This document shows positions 63,401 to 64,000 of a stretch of 64,000 nucleotides of DNA, one piece after another. Made by a program: the position numbers and the translations under genes. The notes under the pieces are model-generated. The model was not told the DNA's origin and did no database searches. It saw nothing but the letters and a program-made list of their open reading frames with translations. The stretch covers positions 186,001 to 250,000 of the forward strand of contig NZ_ANFY01000003.1 in the NCBI RefSeq assembly GCF_000331225.1, written 5' to 3'. Numbering within the stretch: the first letter of the stretch is position 1; each line of letters begins with the position of its first letter. The DNA comes from Sandarakinorhabdus sp. AAP62. GTDB lineage: Bacteria; Pseudomonadota; Alphaproteobacteria; Sphingomonadales; Sphingomonadaceae.

Positions 63401-63548
63401 CGGTTTCCTGCCGATGGCGATTGCGACTGGCGCTGGCGCGGAGGTGCAGCGCCCGCTTGCCACCGTGGTGATCGGCGGCATCATCTCCTCCACCCTGCTC
63501 ACGCTGCTGCTGCTGCCGGCGCTGTATCGGCGGCTGGTCAAGGGCTGA
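60408..63548 (+). CDS. RND efflux pump of the heavy-metal (CzcA) type
   Basis: A 1046-residue inner-membrane proton-driven pump of the HME-RND group. It has the expected 12-helix layout with two large periplasmic loops. Motifs: AIPDVTGVQVQVNT near the N-terminus, RSLTRSGLSQVTLLYEDGTD, and in TM4 ALDFGLVVDGAIVAVEN with the proton-relay Asp at about 412 and 418, the CzcA signature DFGxxxDGA. The substrate could be cobalt, zinc, cadmium, copper or silver; metal choice cannot be read here. Start is GTG at 60408 in a GTGA overlap with the channel gene. The tmRNA gene follows about 40 bases later. Confidence 0.94.
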   Translation: MIASLISASARHRGGVLIAALIAAAIGLYHLVTLPIDAIPDVTGVQVQVNTAVPGLAGEEIETRVTVPIERLMGGQPGLTGFRSLTRSGLSQVTLLYEDGTDVMRARQVVTERLANAVATLPPGSAPQLAPITTGLGEILYYTLEWDHPPHAEPHHAGLQPASTHDEHLMALAETQEYVVIPMLRQVAGVAEVNSIGGLERQYVIEPDLAKLAAAGVTPAELAAAVAAHADNAGGGAISQNGRRLVVRTDAKVMQPEAIGALPVKFAGGARPLTVADLATVRVGHMLRAGAATVNGQQTVLGTIMMLTGQNSREVARRVGEFLPDVQAALPRGMVIKVRYDRADIVERTVATVRSNLSEGALLVAFVLILALGQWRAALIVAAVIPVAFLIASIGMVQLDVSGNLMSLGALDFGLVVDGAIVAVENALRRLAAEQARPGHPLTETARRAVIAEAMGQVARPVAFGVAIITLVYVPVLALGGVEGKLFRPMAITVMLALSAALLVSITLVPALASYWLQPTAGHGPTRLVAALEDVYRPVLTATLARPLLALVPALLAVGAAGLLFTRLGTQFTPRLDEGSITTMIYKPVDMSLERSLEIEIALEKSLLKKFPQITAVFSRIGTSAVATDPMPPNENDLYVSYKPLSEWPADGPQSKVALQDAIEAEAHRQFADQSFLRGQPIEMRFNEMLEGTRADLSVKLFGDDNDRLEQLGTKVLAVLKRLPGTAQAEYEVDGRTPSLVVRVDHDALVRLGLGADEVNRAISTALAGQEVGAILEGIRRHGIVVRLPDSSRADLDTIRSLPLRVGQAGLVPLGRVARLEEVLAVEPVRRDNGQKRAALLVNLSGSDIEGYVARAKVEMAKAVALPEGYRIEYGGQFKQLQEAKARLALLVPACLLLILVLVYGALGSITQALIVFAGIPLAVTGGVFALAVRAMPFSITAAIGFIALSGIAMLNGLVMVDHINHLRGEGLARDEAVREGAMDRLRPVISTALVASIGFLPMAIATGAGAEVQRPLATVVIGGIISSTLLTLLLLPALYRRLVKG

Positions 63549-63582
63549 CCCTTGAGGAATCGCCCGGCTGCGCCTACATAGG

Positions 63583-63872
63583 CTGAGCCGGCTTGCCGGA
63601 TATGGCGATAAATGATGCCGTGAAATAGACGCAGCGGACCCGGGGGCAGTACCCGGCGGCTCCACCATTTTCTCAACCCGTTGTCGGGGCGATGTATGGG
63701 GCCGAACCAGAATCGACGTGTGTTCAAAGACGATGTTTTTGCCCGGCCTGAATGAGCCGTAAAACCGTTCAAAACACCATAAATGCCAACGACAACGAGG
63801 CATTCGCAATCGCAGCGTAACTGAGGTCCTCACGGACTGAGTTTCACTGGCCGAAAGCGCGGTACGGGCCAC
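63583..63872 (+). ncRNA. ssrA: Transfer-messenger RNA, circularly permuted two-piece form
   Basis: Rescues stalled ribosomes and tags the protein for proteolysis. The gene is in the permuted alphaproteobacterial order: acceptor piece first, ending GGCTCCACCA at 63667, then a removed spacer of about 30 bases, then the coding piece starting GGGGCCG at 63698. GGGGCCG (63698-63704) pairs with CGGCTCC (63657-63663), confirming the acceptor stem. The tag frame at 63785-63820 reads ANDNEAFAIAA then TAA. The T-arm CCCGGGGGCAGTACCCGG is typical of the group. The outer ends (about 63583 and 63872) are estimates. Confidence 0.93.
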
Positions 63873-64000
63873 ACCGGGCAACAGAAGTGGATTCCAGCGG
63901 CCTGAGGGAGGGCCGGGCAACAGAACCTCCCTCACCGATTTGCACCATCACGGCCCTCCCGGAAAACCAGAACAACTCAGGGGGCCGGGCAACAGAACCC
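63869..64000 (+). repeat. Three hairpins sharing one 13-base loop motif (array cut by the window end)
   Basis: CCGGGCAACAGAA occurs at 63874-63886, 63913-63925 and 63985-63997. Each copy fills the last 13 of a 14-base loop closed by a different complementary stem: CCAC/GTGG, TGAGGGAGG/CCTCCCTCA, and GGG/CCC (the last truncated at 64000). Loop length is identical in all three while the stem sequence changes. No gene is seen in this stretch. It starts at the estimated end of the tmRNA coding piece. I know of no family that matches; function unknown. Confidence 0.7.

Follow-up and report, generated by a model that had tools for sequence, protein, structure and literature searches.

The closest described system to the locus treated here is the alpha_tmRNA of Rfam (RF01849), a permuted two-piece form of tmRNA, the RNA that frees stalled ribosomes, with the conserved 3' terminus ACCuGGCAACAGAA...CACU. 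According to the excerpts of the cited articles used here, pk3 and an ACCU tail close chain A (213 nt) of the Caulobacter tmRNA (PMC1168896). Of the pseudoknots typical for the two-piece form, an excerpt of another account names only PK1 and PK2 (PMC3985003). RNase R is stated to degrade the two-piece tmRNA of Caulobacter, and the split could create an entry point (excerpt of PMC12320835). Pseudoknots 2–4 of the E. coli molecule are described, in the portions consulted, as dispensable for tagging and as mattering for folding and maturation (PMC3985003, PMC3968760), and thus a lineage with a doubled terminal pseudoknot would be a natural test of 3'-end protection. An arrangement of this kind is known from the one-piece tmRNA of cyanobacteria, where one pseudoknot position is filled by two tandem pseudoknots, pk4a and pk4b (excerpt of PMC1168896).

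Here we analyzed a window, that is, a stretch of 64,000 nucleotides of the genome of Sandarakinorhabdus sp. AAP62, at the end of which an initial annotation had reported three hairpins with a common loop. Comparison of structure, covariation, distribution and gene neighbourhood makes it very likely (probability of roughly 0.86) that the copies belong to a two-piece alpha tmRNA, at the 3' end of its coding piece, copies 1 and 2 being tandem pseudoknots and copy 3 a later partial duplicate. As far as the literature searched shows, what is new is the tandem duplication in Sphingomonadales, the Rfam boundary that falls short there, and the recurrent extra copies, mostly lacking one of the two pseudoknot helices (S1, described below). 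An alphaproteobacterial case of pseudoknot duplication thus joins the cyanobacterial one. The latter differs in lineage, in position (pk4) and in belonging to a one-piece RNA, and the likeness noted here is one of arrangement (excerpt of PMC1168896); pk3 of Caulobacter is a counterpart by position. No report of tandem terminal pseudoknots in alphaproteobacterial tmRNA was found in the literature searched, partly available as excerpts (including PMC1168896, PMC3985003, PMC3968760, PMC2704228, PMC11915505, and PMC12320835), which does not establish absence from print, and the matches listed in a literature search for GGCAACAGAA looked unrelated by title.

The tmRNA gene and its motif copies

The last part of the window is matched on the forward strand by the covariance model of RF01849 at 63548..63895 (cmscan, 213.1 bits against a gathering threshold of 50, E 2.7e-60), and ARAGORN places the tmRNA at 63572-63911. 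The permuted order is present: CCACCA of the acceptor piece precedes the coding piece, which holds the tag reading frame ANDNEAFAIAA and a stop at 63785..63820 (+; ARAGORN and sequence). The Rfam match rules out an independent new RNA family. The initial annotation had placed the array after the tmRNA gene and knew of no described family with such a loop, but GGCAACAGAA is the Rfam consensus at the 3' end of RF01849, the CAC tail and the place at the end of the coding piece are the same, copy 1 lies within the match, and copies 1 and 2 are best read as part of the tmRNA. Where the Rfam family has one terminal pseudoknot, the window has two in tandem, plus a partial copy.

A motif scan of the window found CCGGGCAACAGAA without mismatch in three places, 63874-63886, 63913-63925, and 63985-63997, with the spacings of 39 and 72 reported initially. 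The whole 3.13-Mb genome holds exactly these three, all within the array, and a reversed control pattern occurs 0 times. When up to one mismatch was allowed in shuffled sequence, the expectation was 0.17, and three copies were reached in 1 of 100 shuffles. The complementary arms that enclose the copies differ from each other, again as first described. In copy 1 the arms CCAC/GTGG (4 bp) form a stem, S2, around ACCGGGCAACAGAA (63869..63890, +), and by eye this stem can be extended beyond a 2-nt bulge; the letters ACCG (63873-63876) are the 3' strand of a further helix, S1, and pair with the 5' strand CGGU at 63860..63863 (+), as judged from sequence and covariation. Copy 2 has the S1 5' strand CGGC at 63898..63901 (+), which pairs with GCCG at 63912-63915, and a 9-bp stem S2, TGAGGGAGG/CCTCCCTCA, around GCCGGGCAACAGAA (63903..63934, +), followed by the CC of a CACC tail; it is similar to the lone terminal pseudoknot found in other alphaproteobacteria. 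Copy 3 consists of the 6-bp stem AGGGGG/CCCCCT around the same 13-nt loop with a CACTT tail (63979..64000, continuing to 64003, +), without an S1 5' strand at the usual distance. The window end falls inside this copy, and its stem uses bases beyond 64000: the next genomic bases, CCTCACTTCTCC, complete the stem as had been foreseen, although in letters other than the predicted CTGAG.

Between copies 2 and 3 lies an inverted arm, CGGCCCTCCC (63951..63960, +), which is complementary throughout to 63906-63915 on the 5' side of copy 2. The alternative hairpin of these two strands reaches -22.8 kcal/mol, compared with -16.0 for S2 of copy 2 alone with S1 not counted. RNAfold gave z = -0.30 for the 241-nt region, a stability that is not unusual; pseudoknots are outside its scoring, and minimum-energy folding is uninformative here.

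Pseudoknot structure and covariation

Copies 1 and 2 had been described as hairpins, whereas on comparative sequence evidence they are two tandem H-type pseudoknots with interleaved helices S1 and S2. In S1, CGGY just 5' of the stem pairs with RCCG, the first four loop bases, and part of the "14-base loop" is therefore helical; the variable stem forms S2, and GGCAACAGAA is the A-rich crossing loop. The same pairing of S1 and S2 is found in relatives with a single unit. The loop is invariant, as initially claimed, among the three copies of the window, but among relatives its first four letters change together with the 5' flank. Its first letter covaries with the last letter of the flank GCGG(y), giving CGGU/ACCG, CGGC/GCCG, and CGGG/CCCG.

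Among 209 parsed copy-1 and copy-2 units (11 unparsable copies were left out), the outer S1 pair is formed in 207, six of them as G-U, and the other two are G-G in the register used. Different Watson-Crick outer pairs occur in the two copies of 47 of 103 molecules, each matching its own loop. The inner loop letters are fixed in this set because most loci had been chosen by an exact pair of CCGGGCAACAGAA. When the first four loop letters were left free and a stem of at least 3 bp was required, an S1 complement stood 7–11 nt from the loop in 309 of 315 distinct units, compared with a mean of 209 and a maximum of 223 when the loop letters were dealt among the same units. From the 341 distinct units, 26 had been dropped in this test for a stem below 3 bp in the register used, and some of these are real second copies in a shifted register (G006, G016, and G023, the last without S1 there). 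All six exceptions are extra downstream copies, namely those of L001 (the window), L215 (G011), L118, L146, L271 (G063), and L289 (G541). Rare loop types also fit their own flanks (CCCG 2/2, AGCT 2/2, ACGT 1/1, GGCT 1/1, GCCC 1/1, ACCC 1/1, ACCT 14/14, and GCCT 6/7), and rare pairings such as GGCU/AGCU, GCGU/ACGU, GGGU/ACCU, and GGGU/ACCC obey the rule.

Shuffle counts overstate significance because the units share descent, and controls in which the alignment is slid are safer. Two alignments of 38-nt units were tested in this way with a structure fixed beforehand: A1, with 49 distinct rows of 51 units drawn from 61 copy-2 and 24 class units, and A2, with 33 units picked from 52 copy-1, 61 copy-2, and 24 class units. 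In A1, 98.7% of the cells are paired (slid controls 48–57%, maximum 57.3%) and covariation is 0.461 (controls 0.099–0.151); in A2 the values are 99.6% (35–51%, maximum 50.8%) and 0.705 (at most 0.157). S1 is 100% paired in both, its two middle pairs being invariant and hence uninformative there. In one covariation set the S1 5' strands were taken by the pattern G[CG]GG, and only the outer S1 pair is unbiased in that set. Since the stems differ and covary, a direct or tandem-repeat array is ruled out, and the original suggestion of a selected structure with compensated stems, of which further covarying copies should exist in relatives, holds well. The terminal pseudoknot thus has covariation evidence, while the Rfam covariance model leaves the stretch unpaired: copy 1 is aligned there to the terminal consensus.

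Altered crossing loops are found in family f6 (GGUAACAGAA, GGUCUCAAAA). The tmRNAs L291 (G040) and L275 (G052) of this family have degenerate loops, GGUAACAGAA, GGUCUCAAAA, and GGUUACCAAA, in both tandem units, which makes them a place to study the limits of the conserved loop.

Distribution in the class and the order

A covariance search across alphaproteobacteria, as the initial annotation had proposed, was run with a model of the unit (R1) on 142 genomes drawn across the class; 99 match at E <= 0.01, two of them in the window's family. Outside that family, 95 of the 97 matching genomes have a single match, a count in which the cut-off could miss a weak second unit. The two others are G063, where the second copy lies 93 nt on and has no S1, and G193, where the matches are on two contigs. 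When 30 tmRNA loci of the class were read directly, 25 showed one unit and 5 none with a loose pattern. The extra unit of G063 (L271), outside Sphingomonadales, adjoins a 10-bp inverted repeat, CAAATCGGCG/CGCCGATTTG. In G193, contigs C49 and C54 each carry a terminal tmRNA unit, and the second match to RF01849 scores 34.3 bits, below the cut-off; the second place is possibly a second or broken tmRNA gene.

Within the order, R1 matches 125 of 196 genomes, and 40 are matched twice, with 39 belonging to the window's family; the single matches are partly a threshold effect, because G024 has two units by sequence. Direct reading of loci found two or more units in every additional genome read from the window's family (7/7: G012, G027, G028, G204, G465, G532, and G541), and one terminal unit in all genomes read from f4 (3/3), f5 (4/4), and f8 (4/4). 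Families f2, f6, and f7 are mixed: two units were read in three genomes of f2, three of f6, and one of f7, and a single unit in two, one, and one genome, respectively. Our best reading of these sequences is that most alphaproteobacteria with the unit have one terminal pseudoknot, and that the window's family and parts of the order have two, through tandem duplication; one duplication followed by losses, or several duplications, may account for the pattern in the order.

An exact pair scan returned at least 119 records, of which 111 lie behind a tmRNA, 7 start too close to the locus edge to be assigned, and 1 is a chance match. From a whole-collection scan, L088 (labelled Lachnospiraceae) was rejected as a chance repeat, as a tmRNA was not found there. 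A class-wide exact search for the close pair GGCAACAGAA..GGCAACAGAA matched 2 of 385 genomes, the window's own and G232, in an even draw over the class with only four other genomes of the window's family and exact matching only; the pair in G232 is a 15-bp tandem repeat away from the tmRNA and was discarded.

Copy 3 and other extra copies

Arrays of the genus were readable in 22 of 24 genomes (G003 is cut by a contig end and G014 has no Rfam match), and all 22 hold at least two copies of the loop motif. A third copy is present in eight (G000, G001, G009, G010, G011, G015, G020, and G022), and G015 and G010 have a fourth, intact in the former and decayed in the latter. We take copy 3 to be a recent, mostly partial tandem duplication, in which, in the window, S2, the loop and the tail are kept and the S1 5' strand is not. 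The inverted arm behind copy 2, complementary to its 5' side (with a G-U pair in one genome), is found in G000, G001, G005, G009, G010, G011, G015, and G020, and it is missing from G002 and G022.

A function for copy 3 is possible. Copy 3 and its like could serve as a third pseudoknot, as a spare 3' boundary, or through a pairing switch between copy 2 and CGGCCCTCCC, and we give this a modest chance, on the unlikely side. In its favour, the copy 3 loop is identical in 6 of the 8 genomes, while the adjoining 14 nt of spacer average 36% identity among those six (G009 and G010, with changed loops, were left out of this comparison); identical loops are, however, explicable by recent duplication or gene conversion, and in G009 and G010 the loop is changed to GGGCAACATTA. 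Extra copies recur in several lineages and the alternative hairpin with CGGCCCTCCC is strong, but a mismatch falls within the first five stem pairs of copy 3 in 3 of 8 genomes, the fourth copy of G010 has decayed, the third copy of L065 has lost its stem, and the close relatives G002 and G005 have no copy 3. In G015 copy 3 has CGGC 7 nt from the loop, so that a full pseudoknot is possible, and this array is one of two counted as three pseudoknots; on the other side, no S1 strand was found within 18 nt of the copy 3 loop in G000, G001, G010, G011, G020, and G022, and in G009 CGGC stands only at 17 nt. In the window itself, a CGGC begins 33 nt before the loop of copy 3, with no S1 complement within 18 nt. 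Altogether 11 arrays hold a unit without S1, and in one of these (L221 = G023) the unit is no extra copy but the second copy, read in a shifted register. The third copy of L121 has 3 bp with CGGC only at 16 nt, and the second copy of G037 appears by eye to have no S1.

Copy 3 would be what remains of a duplication or, at most, a spare 3' boundary. There is a small chance that the terminal pseudoknot is a cassette that has been duplicated repeatedly at the free 3' end, with extra copies kept as a spare boundary or as the CGGCCCTCCC switch; if true, the switch could unfold the last pseudoknot and so tune tmRNA maturation or turnover.

The 3' boundary of the coding piece

In five of five loci checked (the window and records L062, L082, L102, and L125), the Rfam match stops after copy 1, one unit short, and in contig numbering the second unit of the window's genome begins at 249897, just past the Rfam end at 249895. 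Similarly, in G071 of the same family one unit begins where the match stops. The short match in the five loci may be taken to mean that only copy 1 belongs to the tmRNA and that copies 2 and 3 are terminator or 3'-processing hairpins of the trailer, descended from copy 1. The flank of the terminal unit is also enriched in U, with T frequencies of 0.62, 0.69, and 0.51 at positions 3–5 past the terminal stem (background 0.21), and so the terminal unit may additionally serve as a terminator. We nevertheless consider the trailer explanation quite improbable, as copy 2 has the full pseudoknot (S1 and S2), the strong stem and the CAC tail of single-unit alphaproteobacteria, whereas copy 1 has no CAC tail. 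Moreover, when two result lists were compared, the end of the unit and the Rfam 3' end lay within 2 nt of each other in 36 of 36 genomes outside the window's family, where units are single. The T enrichment is moderate, and a simple terminator scan called none here on this strand.

Against this background the tandem duplication of the terminal unit explains why the Rfam boundary is short in sphingomonads, and a boundary error is indicated in the five loci. Although copy 1 is aligned to the conserved terminus of RF01849, the stem and tail of copy 2 agree with it better. The best reading is therefore that copy 2 would be the ancestral terminal unit, given its strong stem, CAC tail and U-enriched flank, and copy 1 an added internal unit; the mature RNA would then extend through copy 2. 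A terminal pseudoknot in this position could cap the 3' end that the coding piece exposes, stabilising it against RNase R and other 3'-5' exonucleases. It may also support the folding of the two-piece molecule, while the second copy would either reinforce the putative cap or be redundant. The duplicated domain probably guards the free 3' end of the two-piece tmRNA.

Gene neighbourhood

The gene upstream of the tmRNA encodes an RND transporter. On the downstream side, a DUF3833 gene in convergent orientation (L004:1004-1555, or 64003-64554 in window numbering, past the window end) ends at copy 3 and is followed by sspB (PF04386), guanylate kinase, and metabolic genes. The initial annotation had considered the edge of a mobile element, and genomic islands do often integrate at tmRNA genes (excerpt of PMC11915505), but although the extra copies are 3'-terminal gene fragments, as an integration or an att-site scar might leave, such an origin is highly improbable in view of these downstream genes, of a Pfam scan in which none of 13 flanking proteins matched an integrase or phage family (3 of the 13 had no match at all), of 0 matches of the close-pair pattern in viral contigs, and of a spacing between copies 1 and 2 conserved at 35–39 nt in 118 of 118 tmRNA-type records among the matches listed. 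The earlier interpretation was on the whole partly supported: the structure is real and selected, yet it is part of a known RNA.

In several members of the genus, among them G002 and G005, the start of sspB (recognised by eye) lies behind the tmRNA without a DUF3833 gene between them; array growth and the DUF3833 gene may be linked, because G002 and G005 lack both copy 3 and the intervening gene. The tmRNA tag is bound by SspB, which assists ClpX, with certainty in beta- and gammaproteobacteria and perhaps in alphaproteobacteria (excerpt of PMC3985003). With the tmRNA at window 63548-64000 and sspB, which encodes this ClpX adaptor, at L004:1715-2203, the maker and the reader of the tag are thus neighbours.
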